From positions 1-55,533 of the forward strand of contig JAGBTQ010000030.1 in assembly GCA_017631275.1 (NCBI GenBank): 55,533 nucleotides of DNA. The letters are read 5' to 3'. Origin of the DNA: Alistipes sp. (GTDB lineage: Bacteria; Bacteroidota; Bacteroidia; Bacteroidales; Rikenellaceae). Below, in pieces: positions 2,291 through 32,218 of the stretch. Below the pieces are notes generated by a model. It saw nothing but the letters and a program-made list of their open reading frames with translations, had not been told where the DNA came from and ran no database searches. The position numbers were made by a program, and so were the translations under genes. Positions within the stretch are counted from its first letter, which is position 1. The number at the start of each line of letters is the position of its first letter.

Positions 2291-2339
2291 ATAAATTTGT
2301 TGTTAGAGTGGTGTAGCAGTGGCGCTATCACAGCAAATC
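2291..2339 (+). repeat. Short copy of the GTAC-palindrome element (arms only)
   Basis: The outer arms ATTTGTTGTTAGAG and CTATCACAGCAAAT match those of the full element, but only about 20 bases separate them and the GTAC inner hairpin is missing. It lies directly against the full copy at 2338-2470. Confidence 0.55.
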
Positions 2340-2470
2340 ATTTGTTGTCAGAAGGGGTTAGGCTTGGTCTATCGCAAAAGAAGACCCCTCGGGATAGTAC
2401 TTTGACGTACAGCCCGAGGGGTCTTACTTTTAGCGATGGGCCGAGAATGACCCCTTATCACAACAAATTA
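2338..2470 (+). repeat. GTAC-palindrome element, copy A
   Basis: 133 bases. The left arm TTTGTTGTCAGAAGGGGTTA pairs with the right arm ending CCCCTTATCACAACAAATTA. The inner stem is 13 perfect pairs (AAGACCCCTCGGG 2381-2393 with 2413-2425), capped by GTAC-TTTGAC-GTAC. The last three bases are the TAA stop of the minus-strand M3 peptidase gene. No separate terminator is present for that gene or for cysQ. Confidence 0.85.
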
Positions 2471-4570
2471 CTTGAGGTTCATCTGATCGATAAGCGCCTT
2501 AGTCTGTGGCTTATGACCACGGAAGTTCTGATAGAGCTCCATTGGGTGCTTGTGGCCACCCTGCTCCAATACCTCCTTGCGGAACTTAGTTGCTACCTCC
2601 TCAGAGAAGATGCCCTTCTCCTCGAAGTAAGAGTAAGCGTCAGCAGCAAGAACCTCTGCCCACTTGTAGCCGTAGTAGCCTGTTGCATAGCCACCGCTGA
2701 AGATGTGGGTGAAGGCTGGGCCCATAGCTGTGCCATCGACCATAGGAAGAACCTGAGTTGAAGCTACTGCCTTCTGCTCGAAAGCAAGCACGTCGCCTGT
2801 GTATGGCTCAGTGAGCGTGTGCCATGCCATATCGAGCATACCGAATGAGAGCTGACGTACGTTGAAGTATGCAGCGAGGTAGTTCTTAGATGCTACGAGC
2901 TTCTCGATAAGCTCAGCAGGCATAGCCTCACCTGTCTGGTAGTGCTTAGCCCAAAGGTCGAGGAACTCCTTCTCTGTAGCCCAGTTCTCCATAATCTGCG
3001 ATGGAAGCTCCACGAAGTCGCGCTTTACTGATGTGCCGTTGATAGACTCGTACTTACCTACTGCGAGAATGCCGTGCAAGCCGTGGCCGAACTCGTGAAG
3101 GAATGTAGTGAACTCGTCGAAAGTAAGCAATGATGGAGTGTTCTCAGTAGGCTTTGTGAAGTTCATAACGAGCTGCACCAAAGGACGCTGCTCAACGCCA
3201 TCAACAGTCTTAACGCCACGGAACTCTGTCATCCATGCGCCAGCACGCTTAGACTCACGTGGGAAGAAGTCGAGGTAGAGGATAGCCATAAGCTTGTCGC
3301 TTGCGTCCTTAACCTCATATACAGTAGCCTCTGGGTGGTAAGTATCGATGTTATCAACCTCGGTGAATGTCAAGCCATAGAGCTTGCCAGCGAGCATGAA
3401 CACAGCCTCCTTAACCTTTGAAAGCTCGAGGTAAGGCTTAATCTGCTCGTCGTTGATAGAGTACTTAGCCTCCTTGTACTTCTCGTTGTAGTAGCCCCAG
3501 TCCCATGGCATAAGCTCGCCCTCGAAGCCGAGAGTCTTAGCGAACTCTGTCACTGCCTTAACATCCTTGTGAGCATAGTTGAGAGTAGCCACGCAAAGCT
3601 CGTTGAGGAAGCCATTTACTGTAGCTGTATTCTCAGCCATCTTCTCCTCCAATACGTAGTCTGCGTAGCACTTGTAGCCGAGCAACTGAGCAATCTTAAG
3701 GCGGAGCTCAGTGATGCGGCGGATAACCTCAAGGTTATCGCTATCGCCACCGATACCACGTGTATTGTAAGCCTTGTAGAGCTGCTCCTTAAGGTCGCGC
3801 TGTGATGAGTATGTCATGAATGGGCCATAGCTTGGAGCCTGGAGTGTTACTGTCCAGCCCTGCTCGCCACGAGCCTTAGCATCTGCTGCAAGACCCTCCT
3901 TCACGAAGTCAGGAAGCTCAGCTACCTTTGCCTCATCGGTGATATTAAGGGTAAATGCGTTTGTTGCAGCGAGTGCGTTCTGACCAAACTTGAGTGTTAG
4001 CTGAGCAAGCTCAGTGGTGTACTGGCGGTAGAGCTCCTGCTGCTCGCCCTGGAGCAAAGCACCTGAGCGCACGAAGCCCTTGTAGGTCTCCTCCAAGAGC
4101 ATCTTATCCTCCTGGTCGAGCTGAAGCTCACCACGCTCATACTGGTCGTAAACAGCCTTAACGCGCTTGAAGAGCTCAGGGTTGAGCGATACGTCGTTGC
4201 CAAGCTCAGTGAGCTTAGGAGTGATGTTGTTAGCAATCTCCTGCATCTGGTCGTTAGTATCGCAGTTGTTAAGTACGAAGAATACGCCAGATACACGGTT
4301 TAGAAGCTTGCCTGCACGCTCCATAGCCACGATAGTGTTCTCGAAGGTTGGAGCCTCAGTGTTGTTTACGATAGCGTCGATATCAGCACGATTCTGCTCG
4401 ATAGCATAGTCGAATGCTGGCTCGTAGTGCTTTAGCTGAATCTCTGAGAATGGTGGCGTCTGATAAGGCGTGTTCCACTCCTTAACAAGTGGGTTGTTAG
4501 CGATATCGTTACCGCCGCAACCTACTAGAGCCATAGTCAATGCTGACATAAATAGTGTTACTTTTTTCAT
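2468..4570 (-). CDS. M3-family metallopeptidase lipoprotein (Dcp-like), copy 1
   Basis: 700 residues, the full length of the peptidyl-dipeptidase Dcp/oligopeptidase A family, which cuts short peptides with one zinc ion. The signature HEFGH falls near residues 490-495 in TTFLHEFGHGLHG, with the third zinc ligand and helix in FVELPSQIMENW about 30 residues later. The N-terminus has a lipoprotein signal (MKKVTLFMSALTMALVGC), so the enzyme is anchored in the periplasm or at the surface, whereas E. coli Dcp is soluble. A second copy lies 29 bases upstream. Its stop codon is the last base triplet of a palindromic element. Confidence 0.92.
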   Translation of the reverse strand: MKKVTLFMSALTMALVGCGGNDIANNPLVKEWNTPYQTPPFSEIQLKHYEPAFDYAIEQNRADIDAIVNNTEAPTFENTIVAMERAGKLLNRVSGVFFVLNNCDTNDQMQEIANNITPKLTELGNDVSLNPELFKRVKAVYDQYERGELQLDQEDKMLLEETYKGFVRSGALLQGEQQELYRQYTTELAQLTLKFGQNALAATNAFTLNITDEAKVAELPDFVKEGLAADAKARGEQGWTVTLQAPSYGPFMTYSSQRDLKEQLYKAYNTRGIGGDSDNLEVIRRITELRLKIAQLLGYKCYADYVLEEKMAENTATVNGFLNELCVATLNYAHKDVKAVTEFAKTLGFEGELMPWDWGYYNEKYKEAKYSINDEQIKPYLELSKVKEAVFMLAGKLYGLTFTEVDNIDTYHPEATVYEVKDASDKLMAILYLDFFPRESKRAGAWMTEFRGVKTVDGVEQRPLVQLVMNFTKPTENTPSLLTFDEFTTFLHEFGHGLHGILAVGKYESINGTSVKRDFVELPSQIMENWATEKEFLDLWAKHYQTGEAMPAELIEKLVASKNYLAAYFNVRQLSFGMLDMAWHTLTEPYTGDVLAFEQKAVASTQVLPMVDGTAMGPAFTHIFSGGYATGYYGYKWAEVLAADAYSYFEEKGIFSEEVATKFRKEVLEQGGHKHPMELYQNFRGHKPQTKALIDQMNLK

Positions 4571-4599
4571 AAATTATTAATTGTTAGGTTTTTTCATTA

Positions 4600-6900
4600 T
4601 TACTTCTTTACGGGCTCAACCTTGGTGATGCTCTTTGGAGCTACATCAGGCTTAACGGCCTTGCCAGACTTATTTACTGGCTGCTGCTGGATAGCTGGGC
4701 GCTGACCTGGCTGCACTGGCTGCTGCTTAAATAGCGACTTTGGTGCCTCAGCCTTTGGTGCCTCCGTAACCTCCTCTACTGGCTCTGGGTCTTTCCATAG
4801 GCCACGGGCACGAAGCATAGGCTTCTTGTCGGGTGACTCGCCACGGAACTTACGATACATCTCCATACCTGGATACTGACCGCCCTGCGCCAAAAGGTCA
4901 TAGCGGAGGCTCTTAGCAAGCTTCTCGTCGCAGATATCGCGGCTCTGCTTGAAGGCATCGAAGGCGTGCTTATCGAGCACCTCAGCCCAAAGGTAGAAGT
5001 AGTAGCCCGAAGAGTAACCACCGTTGAAGATGTGGGCAAAGTATGTGTAGCGGTAGCGTGGTGCAATCTCTGGGAAGAGGCCACGGCGACCAGCAAGGTT
5101 GTCGTTCTCGAACTTAACAACATCAAAATCCTTAGGCATCTTCTCAAGGCTATGGATATCCATGTCGATGAGTGCTGCTGCAGTGAGCTCAGTGGTTACA
5201 AAGCCCTGGTTGAAGAGCGATGCACGCTGAATCTTGCGGATTAGCTGATCAGGGATAACCTCGCCTGTGCGGTAGTGTGTTGCGTATGTTTTGAGAATCT
5301 CTGGCTCGAATGCCCAGTTCTCCATGATCTGCGATGGGAGCTCCACGAAGTCGCCCTCAACCTCTGCCAAGCCACGATACTTAACATCGGCAAAGAGGCA
5401 GTGAAGAGCGTGACCAAACTCGTGGAAGAGGGTCTCAGCCTCGTCGAACGTAAGCAACGATGGAGTGTCGCCAACAGGAGGTGTGAAGTTACATACCACA
5501 CCTACTACTGGGGCACGACGCACACCATTTACATAGCGCTGCTCCGAGAAGTTGCCACACCATGCGCCACCGCTCTTGGTGCTACGTGGGAATGGATCGA
5601 GATAGAGTACACCAAGATGGGTGTTATCAACGTCGATAACCTCATATACTGTACACTCTTCATGGTAGCGAGGTGCTGCCATAGGGCGGAATGTCACTTT
5701 GTAGAGGCGGTTAGCGAGGGTAAACATACCGTTACGCACGTTGTCGAACGATAGATACTGACGCACAGCATCCTCGTCGAGCTGATACTTCTCCTTGCGC
5801 ACCTTCTCGGCATAGTACCACCAATCAGACTTCTCGAAGGTCTCGTTAGGGTGATCCTTCTTGAACATTGTCTGCATCTCTTCGAGCTCAGCCTTTGCCG
5901 ACTTTAGCGAAGGCTCCCAAATCTCGTTAAGAAGAGCATATACCGCCTCAGGGGTTCCCGCCATCTGGTCGGCAGTAACGTAGTGTGAGTATGACTTATA
6001 GCCGAGCAACTGCGCCTTCTCGATGCGAAGCTCGGTCATCTGCTTAACTATCTCCTTGTTATCTTTGTCGTTGTTGTTGTTACCACGCATAAGATAGCCA
6101 TTGTAGAGCTCACGGCGAAGGTCACGATTCTTCGAGTAGGTCAAGAATGGAAGCATGCTTGGCTTGTCCAAGGTGAAGACATAACCCTCCTTGCCACGAG
6201 CCTTGGCAGCACTCTCAGCCTGCTTGCGCACGCCCTCAGGTAGGTCAGCCACCTGCTGGGCATTGAGCTCGAGGATAAAGTTTGAGTTCTCAGCGAGGAG
6301 GTTGTTACCAAAGCGGATAGAGAGCATAGTAAGCTCGGTGTTAATCTGCTTAAGACGCTCCTTCTTCTCGCCCTTGAGCAAAGCACCCGAGCGAACAAAC
6401 TTATTGTAGGTCTTCTCCAAAAGGCGTGTCTGTAGCTCGTCGAGCTTAAGCTCAGCACGCTTGTTATAGACAGCCTCAACACGCATGAACAACGAGTCGT
6501 TGAGCATGATAGCATTGAAGTGGTCGTCGATGCGAGGCATCATTTTGTTCTGCACCTCCTGCATAGTATCGTCGAGATCTGAAGAGGAGAGCATGCCAAA
6601 CAATAGATAGATGTCGTAGAGCTTGATACCTGCGTTGTCCAATGCAAGAATAACATTCTCGAAGGTAGGCTCCTCCTCAGAGCGAACGATAGCATCAATC
6701 TCATCGTTGTGCATCTTCATCGCAACCTCGAACGCTGGCTCATAGTGCTCGGTACGAATCTTGTCGAATGGAGGAATGTTTTTATCCGATGTCCACTCAG
6801 CAAGAAGTGGATTGTGCTCAGGCACTGTCATATCGCTTGAGCAAGAATAATTCATCATCAAAGAGAACATTGCTAAGAATAATACAAAAATACGTTTCAT
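4600..6900 (-). CDS. M3-family metallopeptidase lipoprotein (Dcp-like), copy 2
   Basis: 766 residues, a paralogue of the next gene and aligning with it along its length. HEFGH lies near residue 493 in LFHEFGHALHCLF and FVELPSQIMENW follows. The signal ends in a lipobox (MMNYSC). The extra length is a low-complexity C-terminal tail of about 60 residues rich in Pro, Gln, Lys and Ala, absent from copy 1, whose role is unknown. It probably shares a transcript with copy 1, from the divergent promoter at 6926-6933. Peptide trimming in the cell envelope is the likely job, by family. Confidence 0.92.
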   Translation of the reverse strand: MKRIFVLFLAMFSLMMNYSCSSDMTVPEHNPLLAEWTSDKNIPPFDKIRTEHYEPAFEVAMKMHNDEIDAIVRSEEEPTFENVILALDNAGIKLYDIYLLFGMLSSSDLDDTMQEVQNKMMPRIDDHFNAIMLNDSLFMRVEAVYNKRAELKLDELQTRLLEKTYNKFVRSGALLKGEKKERLKQINTELTMLSIRFGNNLLAENSNFILELNAQQVADLPEGVRKQAESAAKARGKEGYVFTLDKPSMLPFLTYSKNRDLRRELYNGYLMRGNNNNDKDNKEIVKQMTELRIEKAQLLGYKSYSHYVTADQMAGTPEAVYALLNEIWEPSLKSAKAELEEMQTMFKKDHPNETFEKSDWWYYAEKVRKEKYQLDEDAVRQYLSFDNVRNGMFTLANRLYKVTFRPMAAPRYHEECTVYEVIDVDNTHLGVLYLDPFPRSTKSGGAWCGNFSEQRYVNGVRRAPVVGVVCNFTPPVGDTPSLLTFDEAETLFHEFGHALHCLFADVKYRGLAEVEGDFVELPSQIMENWAFEPEILKTYATHYRTGEVIPDQLIRKIQRASLFNQGFVTTELTAAALIDMDIHSLEKMPKDFDVVKFENDNLAGRRGLFPEIAPRYRYTYFAHIFNGGYSSGYYFYLWAEVLDKHAFDAFKQSRDICDEKLAKSLRYDLLAQGGQYPGMEMYRKFRGESPDKKPMLRARGLWKDPEPVEEVTEAPKAEAPKSLFKQQPVQPGQRPAIQQQPVNKSGKAVKPDVAPKSITKVEPVKK

Positions 6901-6916
6901 CTATGATATATTTTAA

Positions 6917-6934
6917 TTAACTTTGCAAAGTTAA
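6917..6934. promoter_or_regulatory. Perfect 18-bp palindrome made of two abutting -7 motifs
   Basis: TTAACTTTGCAAAGTTAA contains TAACTTTG on both strands, back to back. Each -7 motif ends 25 bases from a start codon: rsmE on the plus strand (6951) and M3 peptidase copy 2 on the minus strand (6900). It is a symmetric divergent promoter. Confidence 0.7.
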
Positions 6935-6950
6935 AAAAAATCTAGAAGTA

Positions 6951-7661
6951 ATGCAACTATTTTATGCACCTGAAATAACATTACCATGTTATACCCTCTC
7001 TGAGGAGGAGTCAAAACACTGCATCAGAGTGCTCAGAATGGGGTGTGGCGATGAGCTACATATCACCGACGGACAAGGCACCATGTATCGCTGTAAGATT
7101 GTGGATGACAACGTGAAACGTTGCACGGTGGAGGTAATCAGCACGGAGCATGAGTACGAGAAGATGAGCTACGGCCTTAGCATCGGAATTGCCCCAACAA
7201 AAAATATTGATCGCCTCGAGTGGTTTTTAGAAAAAGCTACCGAAGTGGGTATATCAGAGATATATCCACTCCTATGCGACCATAGCGAGCGCAAGGAGAT
7301 TAAGCACGAGCGCGAGGAGAGGGTTATCACCTCGGCAGTGAAGCAGTCGTTAAAGGCTTACCACCCCACGCTCCACGAACTAACCCCCGTACGCAAGCTC
7401 ATGGCTATGCCTTTCGAGGGCGAGAAGTTTATTGCACACTGCAACTCGGAGCTCGGCGAGAGGGAGTATCTTGGCAAATTGCTAAAAAAAGGGGGTAACA
7501 CCCTAATTTTAATAGGTCCTGAGGGTGATTTTTCGCCAGAAGAGATTAACTTTGCGCTCCAAAATGGCTTTAAGGCAATATCGCTGGGCAAGGAGCGACT
7601 ACGCACCGAGACGGCTGCTCTTGTAGCTACGGTTGTTACGGCAACAATTAACAAAATGTAA
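6951..7661 (+). CDS. rsmE: 16S rRNA (uracil1498-N3)-methyltransferase RsmE
   Basis: 236 residues, normal length. RsmE methylates U1498 of 16S rRNA using S-adenosylmethionine. It has the PUA-like N-terminal half (HCIRVLRM, HITDGQG) and the SPOUT-fold C-terminal half with KATEVGI, LIGPEGDFSPEE and SLGKERLRTETAA, the knot-forming SAM-binding motifs of the family. It is transcribed from the palindromic divergent promoter and lies 29 bases upstream of the hydrogenase-4-like operon, which may be co-transcribed. Confidence 0.95.
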   Translation: MQLFYAPEITLPCYTLSEEESKHCIRVLRMGCGDELHITDGQGTMYRCKIVDDNVKRCTVEVISTEHEYEKMSYGLSIGIAPTKNIDRLEWFLEKATEVGISEIYPLLCDHSERKEIKHEREERVITSAVKQSLKAYHPTLHELTPVRKLMAMPFEGEKFIAHCNSELGEREYLGKLLKKGGNTLILIGPEGDFSPEEINFALQNGFKAISLGKERLRTETAALVATVVTATINKM

Positions 7662-7690
7662 TTAACTGATTACTACCCAAAAACAAAATT

Positions 7691-14961: not shown

Positions 14962-14971
14962 GACTCGATAC

Positions 14972-15024
14972 ATACCTACAAACAATGGGACTGTCATTCG
15001 GACAGTCCCATTGTTTGTAGGTAT
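14972..15024. terminator. Bidirectional terminator, 24-bp perfect stem
   Basis: Arms 14972-14995 and 15001-15024 are perfectly complementary around a five-base loop. It lies between the converging ends of the hydrogenase-4-like operon and the WG/TonB gene. Each side gives only a short T-rich tail. Confidence 0.8.
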
Positions 15025-15028
15025 TTAA

Positions 15029-17881
15029 CTAGTGCTTTATATTGAACGATATCGGCAGTGTATATGTAACACGTACAGGCTTGTTGCGCTGCTTGCCGGG
15101 CTTCCACTTGGGCGACTTCTTAAGCACCTCGATAGCAGCCTCCGACAGAGTCTTATCTGGCGACTGGAGCACCTGGAAACTAGAGAGCGTACCATCCTTT
15201 TCAACCACAAACTTCACAACGACGTTGCCCTGAACGCCATTCTCTAAAGCAATTGATGGGTACTTCACGTGCTGCATAACCCATGAGCGGAACTTACCAA
15301 GGTCGCCACCTTGGAATGTAGGCATCACCTCGGAAGTTACGTATATCTCTTCATCAACAAACTCCTCCACAGGCTCTGGCTCGGCAACGGGTGCAGATGT
15401 CTCCGCAGCTGGCACTGTTGCTTGCTCCATAGCTGGCTCTGCAACCGCCTCTGGCGCACTCTCCTCTGTAGCAGCGGAACTAGTTGTCGTAGCCTTATCA
15501 TTGTCGCTAACAGCGTCGTTGACATACTCACCCTTATACTTAGCTACGGGCACATCGCACACCTCGAGTTTGTGGCTATCAGCCTTAACGTTACATGGGT
15601 ATACAATCCAATCGCCCGACACAACGGCAGCCTCGCCAGGCAACACGGGCTCAACAACCCACTCGTTGTCGGGATTTACAAGGCCATAGGCATATACATC
15701 GTTGTGCACACTACGCTTCAGTTCGAGCTTAACGGGCTCCATATCGCTAAAGTCGTGAGGCTTAACCTCATTGCTCGACATTAGATTGATCTGCGCATAG
15801 CCATATTTAAAGCTCGCTACACAATAGTCACTATTTTTCTGCTTTAGCAATTTGTCACCCAACTTCTTACCACTATTTCGATCCAAACGGCAAATATATG
15901 GATTATACTTGCCGATATATCCACTATTCTTGGTATATCCACCAATATAACATGATTCGTCCGTTTCGCAGATAGAGCCAAAGCCCTCACCCTCGTTAGG
16001 GGTGTAGGTCCACATAGGCTCACACTCGTTAGAGTATTTTGATATAGGCGATGAAGATGTAATATAGAACTTATCTTTGTTATTTGCCACATACCAACCA
16101 TCATACATCGACACGCCAACGACACGGGCAGACTCGGATAGAGTAATACTATACTTAGTAGTGAAATCACTGCTATCAACAACAGCTATACAGGTCTTAT
16201 CCTCCGTATTGTAATCATTGTAGTAATAGCTTGACTTGCTAACTGCAACACGACAAACAGCCTCCATGAGTATATCGCCATTAGAGAGCTTCTTAATAGA
16301 GACTGGGCTAAAACTCTGCACATCCAAATAATTAGTAAGAGCGAATAGCTCTACTACCGGGATTTTGTATACAATAGCATTATCCTCCTCTATATAGAAA
16401 TAGTACTCCTCATCGGTTTGATGTTTTATAAAATTTAGTTTATAATCATCAATCTCAATGGTTTCACACTTCATCGAATGGGTATATGTATCTATGCCTA
16501 TATGCTCTTCGTAATTAGTATTGTCATAATATGACAGATTCTTGAATTTAACCACATCACATAGCTTCTTAAAATCAACAGGATGGCTCGTCTGAGGTGT
16601 AGGGCTAACATTTGCAGCCCATGGTTTGTTGAACGCCTTATTATATTCGGGCAGCGTCATGGTCTTGTTGTGATATACCATAATATATTTATCGCCCGAC
16701 TTACAAAGCTGCCAGCTTCTGCCCAACTTTGTCTTGTCTAACTGGTCGAGGGTAGGAGGTATCAACACCTTACCATCTGAGGACAAAACACCATACTTAT
16801 TATCGCTTTTAACAACATACAAATCCTTTTTATGCGACTCAACACTATCGTATAGCGTAGGTGGCACATCGTAATTCTTATCGGTAAGGAGTATATATTT
16901 ACCCTGGGTGCTAAACAAGAAGTTGGCGTTGGAGAGCGTATAGGAGTCAAACTTAAATCTGTTCACCTCCTCGTAGTTAGAATTTTTGTATACTACACAC
17001 TCATCTCCGAGCTTAGCAAGCGTATATAGTTTTGAGATGGCAATAATAGTATCGTACTTGCACTCAATGAGGTTATTGCCAGCATCAGTATAAACACCAC
17101 ACTTTCCATCAATAGATGCCACGAACTTACCATCGTTATGGAATTTGATATCATCACACCTGTACAGCATAATATCTCGTCCATCGCCGGCAATAAGTCC
17201 CTTGTGCGAGCCAAGGCTCAGAATAAATATATTGCGAGATTTGTTGTACTCTATACGATCATAATTACACGCGGCAACAAGAGTACCGTCGTAGCTATAC
17301 AATCCATACTTTTGCCCACTATTCACAAGAATCATGCTGTTGCCCAAGAAGGATATATTATCGTATATTGACGACAAGAGCTCGCCGCCATCACTGGCAA
17401 GAAGCCCCTGGTGCTTACCCTGGGTAATGAGATACATATCGGGCTCTTCTTCATAGGAGATACCATCATATCGAGATGATAGATGTACCTGAGCCATTTT
17501 GATATCTCTAACATGCAACAAAGCATATTTCTTGCCTAAAGTAACGATAAACGACTTATCTCTTGCGTATTGAATTGAATCGTATTTCGGAGTGACAACA
17601 TAGTAGCCATACTGGTCGATAATTCCGAATTGCTTGCGCGATTTTACAATGGCAAGATCACCATTATACGACTCGGCATATTCATATTTTGGCTTGATAA
17701 CCACATCGCCATAGGAGTCCTTAAAACCCCACTTCTGCTTTTTGTACGAGAAGAATGCTGTTTGAGGTTTACCCGCTACACTTGGCGTGATTGTAGTAGC
17801 GAAACAGGGGGTAGAAACAGCCAAAACAAATGCCAATAGCAAAGACAACTGCGCCATTCGTGGGATAAACATATTCCTCAT
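15029..17881 (-). CDS. WG-repeat protein fused to a TonB C-terminal domain
   Basis: 950 residues. After a signal peptide (start MRNMFIPRMAQLSLLLAFVL) there are many WG-type repeats, for example KWGFKDSYGDVVIKPKYEY and QFGIIDQYGYYVVTPKYDS, to about residue 430. A beta-rich middle part of unknown fold follows, then a Pro/Ala/Glu linker near residue 800 and a TonB_C domain (MPTFQGGDLGKFRSWVMQ, VVVKFVVEKDGTL, SPKWKPGKQRNKPVRVTYT). TonB domains pass energy to outer-membrane receptors, but ordinary TonB has a membrane anchor; here only the signal is seen. The fusion is unusual and the function not known. Confidence 0.8.
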   Translation of the reverse strand: MRNMFIPRMAQLSLLLAFVLAVSTPCFATTITPSVAGKPQTAFFSYKKQKWGFKDSYGDVVIKPKYEYAESYNGDLAIVKSRKQFGIIDQYGYYVVTPKYDSIQYARDKSFIVTLGKKYALLHVRDIKMAQVHLSSRYDGISYEEEPDMYLITQGKHQGLLASDGGELLSSIYDNISFLGNSMILVNSGQKYGLYSYDGTLVAACNYDRIEYNKSRNIFILSLGSHKGLIAGDGRDIMLYRCDDIKFHNDGKFVASIDGKCGVYTDAGNNLIECKYDTIIAISKLYTLAKLGDECVVYKNSNYEEVNRFKFDSYTLSNANFLFSTQGKYILLTDKNYDVPPTLYDSVESHKKDLYVVKSDNKYGVLSSDGKVLIPPTLDQLDKTKLGRSWQLCKSGDKYIMVYHNKTMTLPEYNKAFNKPWAANVSPTPQTSHPVDFKKLCDVVKFKNLSYYDNTNYEEHIGIDTYTHSMKCETIEIDDYKLNFIKHQTDEEYYFYIEEDNAIVYKIPVVELFALTNYLDVQSFSPVSIKKLSNGDILMEAVCRVAVSKSSYYYNDYNTEDKTCIAVVDSSDFTTKYSITLSESARVVGVSMYDGWYVANNKDKFYITSSSPISKYSNECEPMWTYTPNEGEGFGSICETDESCYIGGYTKNSGYIGKYNPYICRLDRNSGKKLGDKLLKQKNSDYCVASFKYGYAQINLMSSNEVKPHDFSDMEPVKLELKRSVHNDVYAYGLVNPDNEWVVEPVLPGEAAVVSGDWIVYPCNVKADSHKLEVCDVPVAKYKGEYVNDAVSDNDKATTTSSAATEESAPEAVAEPAMEQATVPAAETSAPVAEPEPVEEFVDEEIYVTSEVMPTFQGGDLGKFRSWVMQHVKYPSIALENGVQGNVVVKFVVEKDGTLSSFQVLQSPDKTLSEAAIEVLKKSPKWKPGKQRNKPVRVTYTLPISFNIKH

Positions 17882-24930: not shown

Positions 24931-25110
24931 GAGGTAAGGTGTGCTCCGCTCAAGATTAATGAGATAGGTGGGACGAATGGGATAGATGGGGAGAATAGGG
25001 AAGATAGGGAATTTAAGGAACTTAGGGAAAGACTATCACTAAACTCCTTAAATTCATTAATTTCATTAAATTCACTAATCAGCTACTTCAATCAGCACAC
25101 CGATTTCTCA
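24925..25110 (+). repeat. Purine-rich degenerate repeat tract
   Basis: It begins at the glycosyltransferase stop with GAGAGATAAGAGGTAAGG, then GGGACGAATGGGATAGATGG and AGGGAAGATAGGGAATTTAAG-type units, close relatives of the tract after cysQ. It leads directly into the palindromic elements. With them it fills the 446-base convergent gap; no gene is seen. Confidence 0.7.
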
Positions 25111-25117: not shown

Positions 25118-25247
25118 TAAATTTGTTGTCAGAAGTACCAAGATTTGTCACCAAGTCGAAATTGCACTGGAAGGGGGTGTACTTGATGTACATCTCCTTT
25201 CAGGGCAATGAGCTTGGGGGCGAAGGTTGGGGCTTATCACGAGAAAT
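25118..25247 (+). repeat. GTAC-palindrome element, copy B
   Basis: Outer arms ATTTGTTGTCAGAAG and CTTATCACGAGAAAT. Inner stem GGAAGGGGGTGTAC pairs with GTACATCTCCTTTC; the three imperfect pairs are all G-T on the plus strand. The GTAC-TTGAT-GTAC tip is present. Nearly the same inner sequence occurs in copy E at 31958. Copy C follows with no gap. Confidence 0.8.
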
Positions 25248-25379
25248 AATTTGTTGTCAGAAGGGGTTAGATTTGGCCTATCGCAAAAGTGAGCACCCGA
25301 GGATAGTACTCAAACGTACAGCCTCGGGTGCTCAGCCTTTTGGGATAGGTCGAAGATGACCCCTTATCACAACAAATTA
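25247..25379 (+). repeat. GTAC-palindrome element, copy C
   Basis: 133 bases with ends TAATTTGTTGTCAGAAGGGG and CCCCTTATCACAACAAATTA. Inner stem GAGCACCCGAGG (25291-25302) pairs perfectly with 25322-25333, tip GTAC-TCAAAC-GTAC. The final TTA is the TAA stop of the minus-strand barrel gene. Confidence 0.87.
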
Positions 25380-25910
25380 AAAGTTGTAGGTGCACGAAAT
25401 ACCCAAATTCGCCAAACCTAATTCATTGAAGAAGACCTCATTAACACTCCTGGAATAGAAGATGCCAGGACCAAATGTTGGGGTCCAGTCGAGAGCAAGG
25501 GTGATAGGCGTGTTGTTGAATGTGAAGCCGAGACGTGCCATGCCGGCAACACCTACGTAGGCGTAGTGAGCCACGCCACCAACATTAACACCAGCACCAG
25601 CATCTACAAACCACTTGCCACCACGTGGTGTCCAATCCATGTCGAGGAGGTGCCAGTTGTGAAGAAGCGTAAAGTCTGCCATCACGCGACCCTGACTAAC
25701 GTTGATAGTATTATCCGTCTTTACCCAGCTGGGAATTACAGGGTTGTTCCATGAAGCACCGAAGCGTGCCTCGATATAGTTCTTGCCGTCGTACTTATAC
25801 TGGCCCAATGCCTGGAAGCCAGAGCCCACGCGACCACCAACAGAGAACTGCTGAGCAAATGCTGTTGTTGTGAACAATACAGCGACTAAGATTAGAAGTA
25901 CTCTCTTCAT
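25377..25910 (-). CDS. Small outer-membrane beta-barrel protein
   Basis: 177 residues. Signal peptide MKRVLLILVAVLFTTTAFA, then a Gly- and aromatic-rich beta pattern ending CTYNF with terminal Phe, typical of an 8-strand exported barrel. It resembles the next gene upstream in layout (RVGSGFQALGQYKYDGKNYIE against RLGYGAELQYERHFSAENYLE; both have W-x-L-x-x-x-D/E-WTPxxGKWF), so the two are paralogues. No promoter is seen between them; expression may come by readthrough. The role is unknown. Confidence 0.75.
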   Translation of the reverse strand: MKRVLLILVAVLFTTTAFAQQFSVGGRVGSGFQALGQYKYDGKNYIEARFGASWNNPVIPSWVKTDNTINVSQGRVMADFTLLHNWHLLDMDWTPRGGKWFVDAGAGVNVGGVAHYAYVGVAGMARLGFTFNNTPITLALDWTPTFGPGIFYSRSVNEVFFNELGLANLGISCTYNF

Positions 25911-25941: not shown

Positions 25942-25962
25942 GAGCCGCCACCTGGGCGGCTC
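25942..25962 (-). terminator. Terminator or attenuator between the paired barrel genes
   Basis: GAGCCGCC and GGCGGCTC form an eight-pair GC-rich stem, followed on the minus strand by TTAATTTTTTA. It lies between the two paralogous barrel genes and may reduce expression of the second. Confidence 0.75.
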
Positions 25963-25969
25963 TGTCTAT

Positions 25970-26449: not shown

Positions 26450-26495
26450 AATAGTAAGTATTAAAGTTATACAATTAGATTTTATTTTCTTAAGA

Positions 26496-26503
26496 CAAAT
26501 GTA
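26496..26503 (-). promoter_or_regulatory. -7 promoter motif for the barrel gene
   Basis: TACATTTG on the minus strand fits TAnnTTTG and supports the start at 26449 with a leader of about 40 bases. Confidence 0.55.
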
Positions 26504-26635
26504 CAATTTTTTTCGTGGACTTCAAAGCATTTCCTCTATTTTCGGCACATAATTCAGCATAAATACATATTATCGAAACAGAGACTAACATAAAACATTG
26601 CACAAATAACCAATATTAATACTAACTGTAACGGC

Positions 26636-26880
26636 TAATGGGGAAGGGGAAAGGGGGAGGTGCAGCGTGCTTAGCAGGGGATCTAATGAGGTGGGATAGA
26701 TGGGGAGCGCCGAGATAGTGAATTTAGGGAGATTAAGGAGGCGCTGCGTTTAATAGGGTTAATGGGGTCAATAGGGGCGCTAAAGCTTGATTAGGACGAT
26801 TGGGACGATTAGGACGATTAGGACGATTAGGCTAGGTTATCACTCCCCCATCTTCCCCATTATCCCCATAAATTACACCT
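26636..26880 (+). repeat. Purine-rich degenerate repeat tract, turning C-rich at the end
   Basis: Units such as GGGATAGATGGGGA, TTAGGACGATTAGGACGATT and GGCGCTAAAGCTTGAT; the last occurs inverted in the tract at 31744. The end switches to C-rich (CCCCCATCTTCCCCATTATC). With copy D it fills most of the gap upstream of the barrel gene; 26504-26635 is AT-rich with nothing recognisable. Confidence 0.7.
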
Positions 26881-26894
26881 CAATTAGCAAGAAA

Positions 26895-27026
26895 TAATTT
26901 GTTGTCAGAAGGGGTTAGATTTGGCTTATCGCAAAAGTGAGCACCCGAGGATAGTACACTTAGTACAGCCTCGGGTGCTCAGCTTTTTGGGATAGGTCAA
27001 AGATGACCCCTTATCACAACAAATTA
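26895..27026 (+). repeat. GTAC-palindrome element, copy D
   Basis: 132 bases. The ends are the same as copy C. Inner stem GAGCACCCGAGG (26939-26950) pairs with 26969-26980, tip GTAC-ACTTA-GTAC. Compared with copy C, one C-G pair of the outer stem has become T-G, keeping the pairing on the plus strand. The last TTA is the def stop codon. Confidence 0.87.
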
Positions 27027-27572
27027 TCGCTTGGTTTTGTAGGCAGCACGATACGATCCTCGTGCCATCTTCTGAAGCTTATTCTTAATAAGGTTCTTAC
27101 GGATTGGCGCAAGGTGGTCGGTAAATACTAGACCCTCGATATGGTCGTACTCGTGCTGGATAACACGTGCTGGCTTGCCTGTAAACTCCTCGTCGTGCTC
27201 CACGAAATTCTCGTCGAGGTAGCGCATACGGATAGTTGTCGAGCGGCGCACATTCTCGTGTAGGCCAGGGAGTGAGAGGCAACCCTCCTCAAATAACTCG
27301 GTCTCCTCCGAGCGCTCGTAGATCTCGGCATTGATAAATACACGCTTAAAGTCTGCCAGCTCAGGGATATCCTCGCCCCAAGGTGTGCAATCGACGATGA
27401 AGAGGCGGATGTTCTTGCCAATCTGTGGCGCAGCAAGACCCACGCCCTCAGCCTCAGCAAGGGTAATCCACATATCCTCGATGAGCTTCTTAAGCTCGGG
27501 ATAGTCGGGAGTTATATCTTCCGATACGTTGCGCAACACCTGCGAGCCGTATATTACAATTGGATAAATCAT
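27024..27572 (-). CDS. def: Peptide deformylase
   Basis: 182 residues. It removes the formyl group from the N-terminal Met of new proteins. The three family motifs are intact: GVGLAAPQIG (residues 43-52), EEGCLSLPG with metal ligand C98, and HEYDH at 140-144 with ligands H140 and H144 and catalytic E141. It is the last gene of the glyS-small peptide-ruvX-def cluster, 19 bases after ruvX. Its stop codon is provided by palindromic copy D. Confidence 0.97.
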   Translation of the reverse strand: MIYPIVIYGSQVLRNVSEDITPDYPELKKLIEDMWITLAEAEGVGLAAPQIGKNIRLFIVDCTPWGEDIPELADFKRVFINAEIYERSEETELFEEGCLSLPGLHENVRRSTTIRMRYLDENFVEHDEEFTGKPARVIQHEYDHIEGLVFTDHLAPIRKNLIKNKLQKMARGSYRAAYKTKR

Positions 27573-27591
27573 AGCTTATTTTTTGTTTTCT

Positions 27592-28008
27592 TTACATACC
27601 TACTGATGCCATGTAGTCTTGCAAGATTATTGCTGCCGACACCTTATCTACCAACGACTTATCGCGGCGTGCCATCTTACCTATGCCACTCTCACGAATG
27701 GTGCGCTGTGCCAATACCGAGGTAAAGCGCTCGTCGTATGCCACCACCTGCTTATCGGGGTAGGCATGGCGCAGACGGCCCATGAGCGGCTGAATGTAGC
27801 GCATAGTCTCCGACGGCTCACCATTCATCTGGCGGGGGTGACCCACGACGATTGTCGCAACCTCCTCACGCTTAAAATAGTCGGCAAGGTAGCGCTCGAG
27901 CTGCTTCGTGTCGACAGTCTCGAGGGGCTGCGCTATGATGCCCAGAGGGTCGGTCACCGCAAGGCCCGTGCGCTTAGTGCCGTAGTCTATAGCAATCAAT
28001 CGTGGCAT
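27592..28008 (-). CDS. ruvX: Putative pre-16S rRNA nuclease RuvX/YqgF
   Basis: 138 residues, normal length. YqgF proteins have an RNase H-like fold and act in 16S rRNA 5'-end maturation; they were first named Holliday-junction resolvases by homology. The N-terminal strand carries the acidic residue in AIDYGTKRTGLAVTD, VVGHPRQMNG follows, and YDERFTS and KSLVDKVSAAIILQDY near the C-terminus hold the other catalytic acids. The ATG is one base after the stop of the small membrane peptide gene, so translation is probably coupled. Confidence 0.93.
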   Translation of the reverse strand: MPRLIAIDYGTKRTGLAVTDPLGIIAQPLETVDTKQLERYLADYFKREEVATIVVGHPRQMNGEPSETMRYIQPLMGRLRHAYPDKQVVAYDERFTSVLAQRTIRESGIGKMARRDKSLVDKVSAAIILQDYMASVGM

Positions 28009-28009
28009 A

Positions 28010-28120
28010 CTACAACACTTTACCGATGAGATAGCCGATGCCGTAGCCTACAGCGAAGCATAGGGCAATGACGGCAAATATCACCGACCACTTGCGCGTT
28101 GTCGAGGGCTTAGTAATCAT
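28010..28120 (-). CDS. 36-residue single-span membrane peptide
   Basis: This short frame (ATG at 28120, TAG at 28012-28010) lies 3 bases after the glyS stop and one base before the ruvX ATG. It encodes MITKPSTTRKW, then a hydrophobic span of about 22 residues (from SVIFAVIALCFAVGYGIGYL) and ends IGKVL. The basic N-terminus followed by the span predicts an inner-membrane peptide. The tight fit between two housekeeping genes, filling the gap exactly, is the main support. I do not recognise a family. Confidence 0.6.
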   Translation of the reverse strand: MITKPSTTRKWSVIFAVIALCFAVGYGIGYLIGKVL

Positions 28121-28123
28121 TGC

Positions 28124-29668
28124 TTATGCCTTAATCTTCTTGAAGAGCTTGCGGAATGATACCTCGTCGTCAACCAATGCACGCAACGCCTCGATCTTGA
28201 TGCGCTCCTGCTGCATAGTGTCGCGGTGACGCACGGTAACGGTGCCATCCTCCAATGTCTGGTGGTCAACAGTAACGCAGAATGGAGTACCGATAGCATC
28301 CTGACGACGGTAGCGCTTACCGATAGAGTCCTTCTCGTCATATACAACGTTGTAGTCGTACATGAGCTCGTCGATAATCTGACGTGCTACCTCTGGAAGG
28401 CCATCCTTCTTAACGAGTGGCATAACGGCAACCTTTGTTGGTGCAAGGGCTGCAGGGATACGCAATACTACGCGCTCCTCGCCATTCTCGAGCTTCTCCT
28501 CGCAGTATGCTGCCGACATGATCTGCAAGAACATACGGTCAACACCGATAGATGTCTCAACAACATAAGGAACATAGCTCTCGCCACGCTCAGGGTCAAA
28601 GTACTGAATCTTCTTGCCTGAGAACTCCTGGTGGCGACCAAGGTCGAAATCGGTACGTGAGTGGATACCCTCAACCTCCTTGAAGCCGAATGGGAAGTTA
28701 TACTCTACGTCGGTAGCTGCGTTAGCATAGTGGGCCAATTTGTCGTGGTCGTGGAAGCGGTAGTTCTCGTCGCCGAAGCCGAGGGCACGGTGCCAAGCCA
28801 TACGTGTATCCTTCCACTTTGCCCACCACTCCATCTCGGTGCCAGGCTGCACGAAGAACTGCATCTCCATCTGCTCGAACTCACGCATACGGAAGATAAA
28901 CTGACGAGCAACAATCTCGTTACGGAATGCCTTACCAATCTGAGCAATACCGAAAGGTAGCTTCATGCGGCCAGTCTTCTGCACGTTAAGGTAGTTAACG
29001 AAGATACCCTGTGCTGTCTCAGGACGGAGATATACGGTGTTTGCGCCATCTGCCGTTGAGCCCATCTGTGTTGAGAACATGAGGTTGAACTGACGAACAT
29101 CTGTCCAGTTGCGAGTACCCGAGATAGGACATACAATCTCGCAGTCGAGGATAATCTGCTTGAGCTCCTCGAGATTGTTGTCGTTGAGAGCCGTTGCAAA
29201 GCGCTCGTGGATAGCATCCATCTTAGCCTTGATCTCGAGCACACGTGGCGATGTAGCGAGGTACTGCTCCTCGTCGAACTTATCACCAAAGCGCTTACGC
29301 GCCTTCTCCACCTCCTTCTGAATCTTCTCCTCCTGCTTAGCCATCCAATCCTCAACCAAGACGTCAGCACGGTAGCGCTTCTTTGAGTCCTTGTTGTCGA
29401 TAAGTGGATCGTTGAAGGCGCCTACGTGGCCTGATGCCTCCCAAGTGCGTGGGTGCATAAAGATAGCTGCGTCGATACCTACGATGTTCTCGTTGAGCTT
29501 AACCATTGAGTCCCACCAATAACGCTTGATGTTGTTCTTAAGCTCAACACCATTCTGACCATAGTCATACACGGCGCCAAGACCATCGTAAATCTCGCTC
29601 GAAGGGAATATAAAACCATACTCCTTGCAGTGAGCAATAAGCTTCTTAAACAATTCTTCCTGTGTCAT
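28124..29668 (-). CDS. glyS: Glycyl-tRNA synthetase (single-chain type)
   Basis: 514 residues. It charges tRNA-Gly as a class II synthetase homodimer of the eukaryote/archaea-like type, distinct from the two-subunit form of E. coli. Recognisable segments are GLGAVYDYGQNGVELKNNIK at the N-terminus, the class II motif region LRPETAQGIFVNY, FRNEIVARQFIFRMREFEQ, and the C-terminal anticodon-binding domain starting about VLRIPAALAPTKVAVMPL. The promoter is at 29729-29736. It is first in an operon with a small peptide gene, ruvX and def. Confidence 0.96.
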   Translation of the reverse strand: MTQEELFKKLIAHCKEYGFIFPSSEIYDGLGAVYDYGQNGVELKNNIKRYWWDSMVKLNENIVGIDAAIFMHPRTWEASGHVGAFNDPLIDNKDSKKRYRADVLVEDWMAKQEEKIQKEVEKARKRFGDKFDEEQYLATSPRVLEIKAKMDAIHERFATALNDNNLEELKQIILDCEIVCPISGTRNWTDVRQFNLMFSTQMGSTADGANTVYLRPETAQGIFVNYLNVQKTGRMKLPFGIAQIGKAFRNEIVARQFIFRMREFEQMEMQFFVQPGTEMEWWAKWKDTRMAWHRALGFGDENYRFHDHDKLAHYANAATDVEYNFPFGFKEVEGIHSRTDFDLGRHQEFSGKKIQYFDPERGESYVPYVVETSIGVDRMFLQIMSAAYCEEKLENGEERVVLRIPAALAPTKVAVMPLVKKDGLPEVARQIIDELMYDYNVVYDEKDSIGKRYRRQDAIGTPFCVTVDHQTLEDGTVTVRHRDTMQQERIKIEALRALVDDEVSFRKLFKKIKA

Positions 29669-29728
29669 AATCTATATCTTTTTTGTTATTCGTTTCGTGG
29701 GTTATATGCTATAAGCATATTCAAACGG

Positions 29729-29736
29729 CAAAGATA
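29729..29736 (-). promoter_or_regulatory. -7 promoter motif for the glyS operon
   Basis: TATCTTTG on the minus strand; the expected leader is about 55 bases. Confidence 0.6.
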
Positions 29737-29751
29737 GCAAAAAAAAGTGAA

Positions 29752-29893
29752 ATGTGAAAGGCGAAAGGTGAGAAGTAAGGAATATGTTTATAAACCTGTG
29801 CGAAGCACACCCTACTTTTCACCTTTCACCTCTCACTTTTCACCTTTTAAACCTCGTGCGAAGCACACCACACTTTTCACCTCTCACCTTTCA
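29752..29893. repeat. Inverted and tandem repeat of the GTGAAAGGTGAGA family
   Basis: GTGAAAGGCGAAAGGTGAGA (plus) is followed by two tandem copies of a ~58-base unit in reverse orientation, each with GTGCGAAGCACAC and then CTTTTCACC/CTCTCACC/TTTCAC strings. The same sequence follows cysQ at 2141. The last bases include the TGA stop of radC (29891-29893). Confidence 0.75.
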
Positions 29894-30547
29894 CTTTAGT
29901 ATGCCGGTTGCCCTAAATGAGTAGCGCGCGCCCTGAGCAATTATCACGTGGTCCAACAGGCGAATGTCGAAGAGGCGTGCTGCCTCCGACACACGCTCCG
30001 TAAGCTCGATATCTTGACGGCTTGGCTCAGCAGAGCCTGAGGGGTGGTTGTGCACCAGAACTATCTGTGTGGCAAGCAGTTCTATTGCTCGTTTGATTAT
30101 TAGGCGACAATCTACAACGGTGGTCTGCACACCGCCCTGACTTATGCGCATGCGGTCGAGAACTCTGCCCGACGAGGCTAGGTACAACGCCCAGCACTCC
30201 TCATGCTTGAGCATGCCTATCTGTGGCTCCATAAGGCGTGCCACGTCGCTATCCGATGTTATCGTGTCGTATGATGTGCCCTCAGCAAGAAGCACCCTGC
30301 GCCCTAGCTCCGTAGCCGCCTTTAGGCGCATGGCACGCCTAAGACCCAGGCCCGAGCTCATGCGCAGACGTGAAAAGTCGGTGGCAGTGAGCCTAAGCAA
30401 CGAGCCATCAGCGCCGTCTAAGAGCTCGTGCGCCACGTCCAACGCTCTATCGTCGCTTGCTCCCTCAGCAATGATTGCCGCAACAAGCTCGCTATCGGTC
30501 AGGCTCTCGGCACCTCGTGAGAGGAGTTTATCAGTAAGATTTTTCAT
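29891..30547 (-). CDS. radC: RadC family JAB/MPN-domain protein
   Basis: 218 residues. The N-terminal helix-hairpin-helix-like region is followed by a JAB metalloprotease-like domain with VLVHNHPSGSAEPSRQD (HxHPSG, then S and D, the zinc-binding set). Named for DNA repair, but the real biochemical role of RadC proteins is unsettled. The length is normal. The gene follows the YkuD gene on the same strand with 15 bases between. Its stop codon lies in a dispersed repeat. Confidence 0.9.
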   Translation of the reverse strand: MKNLTDKLLSRGAESLTDSELVAAIIAEGASDDRALDVAHELLDGADGSLLRLTATDFSRLRMSSGLGLRRAMRLKAATELGRRVLLAEGTSYDTITSDSDVARLMEPQIGMLKHEECWALYLASSGRVLDRMRISQGGVQTTVVDCRLIIKRAIELLATQIVLVHNHPSGSAEPSRQDIELTERVSEAARLFDIRLLDHVIIAQGARYSFRATGILK

Positions 30548-30562
30548 ATCGACCTAAAAAAT

Positions 30563-31663
30563 TTATCTAACACGCACACTCATGCCCGGCTCTAATGTTT
30601 CGGGCGTAATATCGGGGTTAAGTTTCTGAATTACAGAGGCATGTGTACCATGCATCACGGCAATGCGACCAAAGGTATCAATTGGGGTTGCAATATAGTA
30701 TTCTGGTCCCGTATTCTCACTCTTCTCGCCCCAGCGCAACACGCCGTCGAGTAGCACCGAGAAGCTGCCGCGAACAACAATCTTCTCTCCCGGAACAAGG
30801 TTTTTTAGGTTAGTTCCAGGGTTGAGCGCCTCGATAGCCTTGCGCGAAGTACGGTACTTGATAGCCAACGAGAGGTGCGTATCACCCCTTTTTACGGTGT
30901 GCACAACACGCTCCTGCACCACATCGCACTCTATTTCGCCACAATATCGCATTAGCTCAAAGATGCAATACTCATCGTAATAGCGCCTATAGTGAACAAA
31001 GCAACGACCGTCGGCAGCCATATCGCGGATAGAGGTCTCTACGACAACCCTCATGCCCTCACGCACAAATGGTTGTAGCTTGTCGAGGTCCTCCGTGGCA
31101 AGACATATACAACCCTCTGAGGCGCGTGTGCCAATGTTGTGACGGCGCAGCGTGGCGTGAATACCAATGCCATAGTGAGGAGGGGCATATAGGCGGATAA
31201 ACCAGTTGCCGTAGCTACCAAGTATATAGCCATTACCATCATTGGCGTCGTTACCCCACAGTGAGGCATCTTGGATTTCATGCACCACAAACTCGCCCTC
31301 GGGAGTTCTGTAGTCGCCAGAGTGCTGCTTGTTGCCATAGCGTGAGCCCACGGTGGCAGGAAAAGAGAATATCGTGCGACCCGAAATATCTATGAGTGAG
31401 AGCGTTTGCTGCTCCTTGGATATCAAGATGTAGGATGCCATGTAGGGATTACCATCGCACACCACCTCGTCGGGAGCATCAACTATGTCGATGTCGGAAT
31501 ATACAAACGATACGAATTTATCGATATATGTTCCGTGGCCGTAGCGCCATAGGCTGCGTATAAAGGCCTCGGCAGGTGTTGCAGAGAGCACAGATGCCAC
31601 CACTAACACTATGCACAATGCGATGCGCCGCACAGCAGGGGTTATGTATGTTGATTTAGGCAT
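30563..31663 (-). CDS. L,D-transpeptidase-like (YkuD) protein with two LysM domains
   Basis: 366 residues with an N-terminal signal (IALCIVLVVASVLSATPAEA). YkuD enzymes make 3-3 crosslinks in peptidoglycan or attach proteins to it. The YkuD domain (about 70-215) includes HATLRRHNIGTRASEGCICL with the nucleophile C185. The usual SHGCIR is SEGCIC here: E183 replaces His and Cys replaces Arg. A LysM domain follows (HTVKRGDTHLSLAIKYRTS, NLVPGEKIVV), then a second, weaker one at the C-terminus (TPETLEPGMSVRVR); both would bind peptidoglycan. Confidence 0.85.
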   Translation of the reverse strand: MPKSTYITPAVRRIALCIVLVVASVLSATPAEAFIRSLWRYGHGTYIDKFVSFVYSDIDIVDAPDEVVCDGNPYMASYILISKEQQTLSLIDISGRTIFSFPATVGSRYGNKQHSGDYRTPEGEFVVHEIQDASLWGNDANDGNGYILGSYGNWFIRLYAPPHYGIGIHATLRRHNIGTRASEGCICLATEDLDKLQPFVREGMRVVVETSIRDMAADGRCFVHYRRYYDEYCIFELMRYCGEIECDVVQERVVHTVKRGDTHLSLAIKYRTSRKAIEALNPGTNLKNLVPGEKIVVRGSFSVLLDGVLRWGEKSENTGPEYYIATPIDTFGRIAVMHGTHASVIQKLNPDITPETLEPGMSVRVR

Positions 31664-31689
31664 CTGTTTTGTCGAGCTATATAATTAAA

Positions 31690-31697
31690 CAAAGTTA
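31690..31697 (-). promoter_or_regulatory. -7 promoter motif for the YkuD gene
   Basis: TAACTTTG on the minus strand, 26 bases before the start codon at 31663; radC is probably on the same transcript. Confidence 0.55.
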
Positions 31698-31743
31698 GCA
31701 AATCTTTTGCTTAGCACAAAATATTTGGGGATAATTGTTTTGT

Positions 31744-31930
31744 TGGGGGGCTCGGCGCAGAGATAGGGAAGATAGGGAAGATAGGGAGAATAGGGAAGGT
31801 GGGGACGATGGGACGATGGGACGATGGGACGAATGGGACGAATGGGAAATTTCCTATCGAGCGAAGCGATCCCATCTATCCCATCAAGCTTTAGCGTTAC
31901 CCATCAAGCTTTAGCGCCCTCATCTATCCC
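31744..31930 (+). repeat. Purine-rich repeat tract with an inverted C-rich half
   Basis: The first half is G-rich (AGATAGGGAAGATAGGG, GACGATGGGACGATGGGACG), the second half C-rich (CCCATCTATCCCATCAAGC, ATCAAGCTTTAGCGCC twice). The two halves can pair. It precedes copies E and F; together they fill the 542-base gap between the YkuD gene and rnc, with no gene seen. Confidence 0.7.
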
Positions 31931-31957
31931 AGCCCCTGCCCACCTCAATCAGCAAGA

Positions 31958-32087
31958 TAAATTTCTCGTCAGAAGTACCAAGATTTAACAACAGGTCGAA
32001 ATTGCACTGGAAGGGGGTGTACTTAAGCGTACATCTCCTTTCAGGGCAATGAGCCTGGGGGCGAAGATTGGTGCTTATCACGAGAAA
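31958..32087 (+). repeat. GTAC-palindrome element, copy E
   Basis: Arms TAAATTTCTCGTCAGAAG and CTTATCACGAGAAA; this arm variant (CTCG instead of TTGT) is fully self-consistent. The inner stem is like copy B, tip GTAC-TTAAGC-GTAC. Copy F follows directly. Confidence 0.8.
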
Positions 32088-32218
32088 GAAATTTCTTGTC
32101 AGAAGGGTTGCAGATGTGGCCTTGACATGAAAAAGCCACCGATGGGTAGTACTTGATGTACGTCCCATTGGTGGCTTTGATTGAAAGGTCGCAGATGCGC
32201 CCTTATCACGAGAAATTA
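32088..32218 (+). repeat. GTAC-palindrome element, copy F
   Basis: Arms AATTTCTTGTCAGAAGGG and CCCTTATCACGAGAAATT. The inner stem AAAGCCACCGATGGG (32132-32146) pairs with 32164-32178 with one G-T pair; tip GTAC-TTGAT-GTAC. AGAT stands opposite AGAT in the outer stem, allowing tandem G-A pairs, as in copies C and D. The rnc frame ends inside the right arm (TGA at 32206-32208). Confidence 0.85.

Follow-up and report, generated by a model that had tools for sequence, protein, structure and literature searches.

What kind of element is a palindrome that lies directly on the stop codon of a gene, folds on the strand opposite to the messenger, and recurs at one gene end after another? This question is raised by a 55,533-nt stretch of Alistipes sp. 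DNA (contig JAGBTQ010000030.1, assembly GCA_017631275.1; hereafter the window), where elements of about 125 bp stand in arrays of one to three. They form a large dispersed family of non-coding palindromic elements. In the reading that we prefer, and to which we give about an even chance, they are mobile palindromes resembling REPINs and the YPAL element of Yersinia, with a single-stranded working form, a tie to replication, and a place at gene ends where they stand in for the terminator.

An earlier note on this DNA had described six full copies and one arms-only copy. All are present, and the tip that it reported, GTAC, a 5-6-base loop and GTAC, was found in 6/6 full copies. A covariance model adds a divergent copy (28.3 bits, E 0.0014). 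The right-hand ends of the window arrays abut or overlap the stop codon of minus-strand genes, a feature that the note had missed. The copies are listed below; + denotes the folding, gene-antisense strand, and ORF an open reading frame.

2291..2339, +: arms-only copy with an internal deletion, in tandem with 2338-2470
2338..2470, +: full copy, abutting the stop of the M3 peptidase gene 2468-4570 (-)
25118..25247, +: full copy, distal in a doublet, with a different inner type
25247..25379, +: full copy, proximal in the doublet, abutting the stop of ORF 25377-25910 (-)
26895..27026, +: full copy, abutting the stop of the peptide deformylase gene 27024-27572 (-)
31958..32087, +: full copy, distal in a doublet
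32088..32218, +: full copy, proximal in the doublet, entered by the RNase III gene 32206-32988 (-)
42598..42712, +: divergent copy, probably old, at the stop of ORF 42710-44959 (-)

The RNase III reading frame extends about 13 nt into copy 32088..32218 and ends at the internal TGA of the element. In the divergent copy 42598..42712, the central stem runs into a T-tract in the gene sense.

Position at stop codons

The position of the elements was determined for 149 distinct copies, 139 of them first in their array. They were collected by a pattern that required a GTAC-type tip and arm pairing, so copies without these are missing from the sets of 148-149 used here and below, and ORFs were called by a simple longest-ORF rule. 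On the side that carries the GTGATA motif, the stop of a long ORF lies within 80 nt in 117 of the 139 first-in-array copies. It falls at -6 to +8 in 106 of them, and 71 share one exact offset, with TAA followed directly by TTTSTTGTGATA. No such stop is present in 22 copies, several of which lie at locus edges or behind a partial copy, and in 11 the opposite side has the stop of a convergent ORF. The polarity is fixed, with the GTGATA side facing the gene. Of 118 copies with both neighbours in view, 112 have the upstream gene running towards the element; the direction of the downstream gene is mixed (60:52, with 31 further copies at edges). In 757 kb of the own genome, the stop is TAA in 43/45 element-bearing ORFs, compared with 374/599 ORFs, and on one contig (C6) 20 of 20 arrays begin no more than 5 nt from an ORF stop. 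The arrangement recurs in other families, where a long-ORF stop lies at -11 to +24 nt in 13 of 16 examined matches (those with loci examined among the 23 non-own matches listed).

The element occupies the place of the terminator, whether or not it terminates well. A terminator-like hairpin with a T-tract follows within 120 nt of the array at 0/45 element-bearing ends, and a terminator-like hairpin is present at 66/126 element-free ends. Inside the arrays, a simple finder recorded terminator-like structures in the sense direction in 10/45 and in the antisense direction in 8/45. The finder accepts G-T in sense, which makes its control partly circular; of the 66 ordinary terminators in that control, 48 had the better fold in sense and 12 in antisense.

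The folding strand and its orientation to replication

The folds of the six full copies beat all 200 dinucleotide-preserving shuffles, with z from -3.2 to -12.1 (- strand folded as RNA, + strand folded as DNA). Written on its folding strand, the element is closed by an outer helix of some 8 bp (TTTSTTGT/ACAASAAA for the genus). Further in come a 3x3 internal loop with YAG facing ATC, a second helix of some 9 bp and a 2x2 loop that is often GA/GA. The centre is formed by inner helices of very variable sequence and the conserved GTAC/GTAC tip. Across 26 diverse aligned copies, standard pairs fill 93.5% of cells and 26 of 35 consensus pairs have changed on both sides, with a covariation score of 0.553; shuffles score 0.170, and slid partners no more than 0.137. 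These values bear out the earlier claim that the inner stems differ in sequence and remain self-complementary; selection on structure, proposed with it, is supported by the covariation and by the retention of the antisense fold. Pairing is kept in 99.0% of cells in helix 1 and 98.7% in helix 2; of the 520 cells in the two helices, 51 are wobble and 6 unpaired. The arms are not fixed in sequence either: both partners vary in 6 of 8 outer pairs, 99.0% of cells remain paired, and the outer arms of elements in other families differ from those of the genus. Several inner types can be combined in one tandem array, and some copies carry internal deletions.

Two loci (L145 and L154) carry copies with other outer arms (TTTTCGATTTTAT...CTAAAATCAAAAA) at TAA stops, which retain one arm mismatch and may represent a subfamily. 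A reading of GTGATA...CTGA as a kink-turn (box C/D) was rejected, as many copies read CTAAC and the helix, judged by eye, continues without a bulge.

The gene-antisense strand is the more stable one in 148 of 148 copies, by a mean of 16.0 kcal/mol with RNA and 7.3 with DNA parameters. In the window this holds for 8/8 copies; the energies of copy 2338..2470 are -84.1 kcal/mol on the + strand and -68.7 on the - strand. The mismatches in the arms have the same direction. Read in the gene sense, 632 are A-C versus 47 G-T and 667 are C-T versus 65 G-A, and the four like-with-like types sum to 354. The excess of A-C and C-T is what tolerance of G-T and G-A on the antisense strand leaves. In scoring the pairs, sense G-T counted half and A-C nothing, a bias against this result. 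Since the copies are related, the test was repeated on 10 representatives less than 75% identical, and 10 of 10 were antisense for all three signs. Among the matches in other families, the antisense strand was more stable in 16 of 16 examined, in one by only 0.7 kcal/mol. Mutation bias was rejected as the cause of the asymmetry: C-to-T change on the leading, gene-sense strand predicts sense G-T, the opposite of what is seen.

A fold of this kind could belong to a structured RNA transcribed antisense to the gene, either a small RNA or a terminator that blocks antisense transcription into the gene. Such an RNA would account for the many G-U pairs (51 wobble and 6 unpaired among the 520 cells of helices 1 and 2), for the antisense fold in 148 of 148 copies, and for the conserved tip and internal loops. 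Its transcript, however, would run head-on to the replication fork, which is normally disfavoured. The flanks of 134 arrays, inspected by eye, contain no obvious shared upstream promoter on that strand, an antisense terminator-like T-tract is found in only 8/45 arrays, and no Rfam family corresponds to it. The RNA suggested in the earlier note would have to be of this antisense kind. We consider this explanation unlikely, although it survives better than the other rivals discussed below.

Orientation was counted in five contigs or contig parts (757 kb) holding 64 counted copies in 46 arrays, with the leading strand inferred from third-position GC and TA skew. Three short model matches (L253:13626-13694, L258:16183-16225 and L251:13684-13726) and weaker opposite-strand matches were left out. 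Arrays stand at genes co-oriented with the skew-inferred leading strand in 41 of 46 cases. The background is 292:307 for ORFs (292/599; Fisher p 4e-8) and 82:78 for ORF ends with a downstream gap of at least 120 nt (p 2e-6). The bias is also visible without the skew assumption: among the matches listed, and with single-array contigs left out, 39 of 43 arrays in genome G055 (28.2 expected) and 69 of 70 in G071 (47.9 expected) are in the majority orientation of their contig. In both genomes the two highest-scoring translation-GTPase matches, which we assign as EF-Tu- and EF-G-like from their score and size, have the same direction as the element-bearing genes on their contigs. No rRNA genes that could serve as replication markers were found in three assemblies.

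The polarity could also result from loss alone, if the element were an mRNA 3'-end structure (terminator or stabiliser) whose head-on copies are deleted. Long palindromes are unstable on the lagging-strand template, and head-on copies would be lost because their strongly folding strand is unstable there. The elements do stand where terminators would, and the polarity is 41:5. Loss would explain this polarity but not the antisense pairing kept at 99.0% and 98.7% in helices 1 and 2, and a sense terminator-like hairpin is found in only 10/45 arrays. This explanation appears less plausible still.

Spread and turnover of the family

A blastn search with one copy returned 81 matches, counting both strands of the palindrome, at no fewer than 43 distinct places in the own 1.92 Mb, 32-contig assembly, and a motif-pattern scan of genome contigs found at least 111 stretches. 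Blastn placed the family in 7 of 24 other same-genus genomes and in 0/16 genomes of other families. The search of the own genome and of related Bacteroidales with a covariance model, proposed as a check in the earlier note, revealed a large family. Our model R1, built from 26 diverse copies, matches 77 of 121 same-genus genomes and 7 of 295 genomes of the order, namely the own genome and six in five other Bacteroidales families. The candidates scored per genome numbered 29 (genus), 12 (order) and 9 (phylum), and misses there are weak evidence. Among 395 sampled genomes of the phylum, a second covariance model added one more, with nine candidates scored per genome. Model matches number 134 in G055, at least 150 in G071 and 21 in G328, and may include opposite-strand matches. 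Among the matches listed in the motif-pattern scan, the 80 titles are those of Alistipes sp., Rikenellaceae or Bacteroidales metagenome-assembled genomes, mostly titled as from ruminant hindgut samples. Phage carriage was considered and dropped, as the single match to a viral contig proved on reading to be due to chance.

In one locus from another lineage of the phylum (L328), a similarly shaped, solitary GC-rich hairpin lies 13 nt behind a TAG stop. Here too the antisense strand folds more stably, at -69.6 versus -50.4 kcal/mol.

The Rfam search gave 0 matches at the gathering score over the whole window, and at lax thresholds, applied to parts of the window and seven loci, only sub-threshold matches, mostly to microRNA models. 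The earlier note had recognised no described family, and none was found in Rfam or in searches of an open-access library; ISfinder was not compared. In those library searches, no paper was found that combines the stop-codon, strand and replication properties.

The elements turn over between species. At the deformylase stop an element is present in 3 of 28 genus genomes, in three different inner types (G000, G021 and G024), and is missing from others including G020, whose protein is 95% identical, G011 and G004. Many other orthologous ends carry different inner types or, by eye, an ordinary terminator. For RNase III, 116 genomes gave a match and 30 of these were examined; an element is present in 6, the window's own and five picked out by script. 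On a syntenic contig of G066, mostly 85-91% identical in DNA, all four window array sites are occupied, and the inner type matches that of the window at the deformylase gene only; the divergent 42598 copy is kept there with similar sequence. A comparison aimed at concerted evolution gave a mixed result, with 12 distinct orthologous pairs and only 0-6 sampled paralogues outside G000, a sample too small to weigh.

The window contains other repeats. Minisatellites of 9 bp (GGGAAGATA / GGGACGAAT and kin) at 2190-2286, 24958-25037, 26695-26831 and 31743-31848 lie 30-110 bp beyond the palindromes in 4/4 window array regions, and a short motif that the regions share, CCACCTCAATYAGC, often stands between minisatellite and palindrome. 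Repeats of about 50 bp (GAAAAGTGAAAGGTGAGAGGTG...CTTCGCAC) are found in opposite orientations at 2140-2190 and 29791-29897, and also in intergenic gaps of the syntenic G066 contig. At 14963-15033, where the ends of two ORFs face each other, a separate inverted repeat (33 bp, 91% complementary, with a 5-bp loop) looks like an ordinary bidirectional terminator. Two subtilase (S8) ORFs at 37566-39620 and 40409-42457 (-) are near-tandem duplicates, and SusD-like and TonB-dependent receptor ORFs follow them.

Possible mobility and the closest known systems

How would a mobile palindrome come to lie on a stop codon in one orientation? In the reading stated at the outset, the element would sit right at the stop codon, at the end of a transcription unit, and replace the ordinary terminator there. 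Its working form would be a single-stranded hairpin of the gene-antisense strand, as suggested both by the strand of the fold and by the polarity of replication. At co-directional genes, the sequence of the antisense strand equals that of the nascent lagging strand. The observed orientation would follow if an antisense single strand were captured at the fork on its lagging-strand side, and the host might then use the element as a 3'-end barrier or terminator. A similar preference for co-directional targets is described for a diversity-generating retroelement, which edits such targets best; in the available passages of that paper, the reason proposed is a cDNA complementary to the lagging-strand template, and its authors' own tests of it were inconclusive (PMC12875486).

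Among described systems, REPIN/REP elements with their RAYTs are likewise non-coding and multicopy and fold as a hairpin on one strand (PMC3116915, PMC3733652, PMC12306157); as far as these sources were available, compensatory changes, tandem clusters and 3' intergenic positions are further shared features. REPINs differ in their GTAG-tagged ends and their dependence on Y1 RAYTs, and are described in the same passages as randomly distributed in extragenic space (PMC3116915, PMC3733652); here, Y1 was found in 0/31 genomes. For E. coli REPs, the parts available report 446 of 4,072 (about 11%) within 15 nt of a stop, where they reportedly stall ribosomes (PMC12306157). Replication polarity is not mentioned in the REPIN passages. 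The 26 aligned copies here lack a GTAG (or CGTC) end tag and end in TTTSTTGT...ACAASAAA or variants.

The original paper on YPAL is said to describe insertion just downstream of stop codons, and a palindrome near stop codons is what we find here (117/139). YPAL / RU-2 of Yersinia is nearest in habit, in the passages available a palindrome of about 168 bp (with a 130-bp form) that does not require TA ends and has both empty and filled sites (PMC2229807, PMC2267715). It differs in its duplications of 3-26 bp, of which no clean example was found in the ends compared here, and the same passages do not mention zero-gap stop adjacency, an antisense fold or replication polarity. BrickBuilt miniature inverted-repeat transposable elements (MITEs) of Porphyromonas gingivalis are Bacteroidales miniature repeats with a minisatellite (PMC4596501, PMC5771137); judged from partial descriptions rather than sequence, the minisatellite is inside the element there and beside it here. 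Palindromic candidate RNAs of the human microbiome, such as HMP2_4205 (132 bp), are similar in length and mostly from Bacteroidetes (PMC8040213). They were compared by description only, in passages that do not mention the stop codon or replication polarity, and the element sequences may have been seen before among them.

Several observations weigh against a mobile, replication-tied hairpin. No mobilising enzyme was found among the two kinds sought genome-wide, Y1 and reverse transcriptase; that search did not extend to DDE transposases or tyrosine recombinases. Y1 transposase (PF01797) was detected in 0/31 genus genomes, with controls positive in 5/14. Of the earlier suggestion of a single-stranded DNA hairpin moved by Y1, the first part fits the strand and replication bias, and the second is not supported. 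Reverse transcriptase, rejected as the mobiliser, occurs in 12 of 31 genomes and is absent from G000 and most strong carriers, among them G004, G011, G020 and G021 (these five assemblies are 78-88% complete). In 12 orthologous end pairs and one syntenic contig, the flanks had turned over and no clean filled/empty pair or target duplication was found. Transposition on the lagging-strand template, as in IS608, would predict the opposite strand. The leading strand is itself a skew inference, and lower-scoring translation-GTPase matches are mixed in orientation. On three of the five contigs (C6, C11 and C14) the majority of ORFs fall on the presumed lagging strand, which also means that array orientation does not follow from gene direction alone. 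Finally, the near-base precision at stop codons has no explanation here.

The remaining explanations invoke known enzymes. In line with the earlier note, which saw no transposase nearby, a Pfam scan of the 37 larger of 100 window ORFs turned up neither a transposase nor an integrase nor a reverse transcriptase. A classical TA-type MITE moved by an IS630-like DDE transposase would fit the many copies that start with TAA and end with TTA, giving TA at both ends, and the AT-rich ends. DDE recognition needs fixed repeats, however, and the outer arms vary between lineages yet stay complementary; TA is also ubiquitous, so the stop-codon position and the replication polarity would be left unexplained. 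We regard this as improbable, and the MITE of the Correia/ERIC kind suggested earlier is likewise disfavoured by covarying, unfixed outer arms and by the failure to find a clean target duplication.

IS200/IS605-type elements and integron attC sites act as one-strand DNA hairpins, IS608 with a replication-strand bias and attC with a position after the stop codon. The former rely on Y1, not found here in 31 genomes. That the palindromes are attC-type sites used by a tyrosine recombinase is very improbable: post-stop position, bottom-strand fold and an unpaired spacer between two outer helices agree, but the attC core boxes (5' RYYYAAC, 3' GTTRRRY) do not occur in that order in the 26 aligned copies by eye, the host genes include core genes such as those for deformylase and RNase III, and no integrase is found among the 37 window ORFs scanned, with no genome-wide integrase search made.

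The mobile, single-stranded palindrome thus remains our preferred reading. A more specific form of it, which we put forward only tentatively, is an undescribed class of replication-coupled mobile hairpins in Bacteroidales, in which antisense single-stranded DNA or cDNA would be captured, without Y1, on the lagging side at co-directional stops and become the 3' end of the gene. The lock on the stop codon, the fold of the non-messenger strand and the replication polarity of about 90% were not found described together among known gene-end palindromes. Their combination makes testable the idea of a small hairpin that spreads via the replication fork and replaces terminators genome-wide. In some gut bacteria many gene ends carry a member of the family, which therefore bears on the annotation of 3' ends, as well as on the palindromic candidate RNAs of microbiome surveys.

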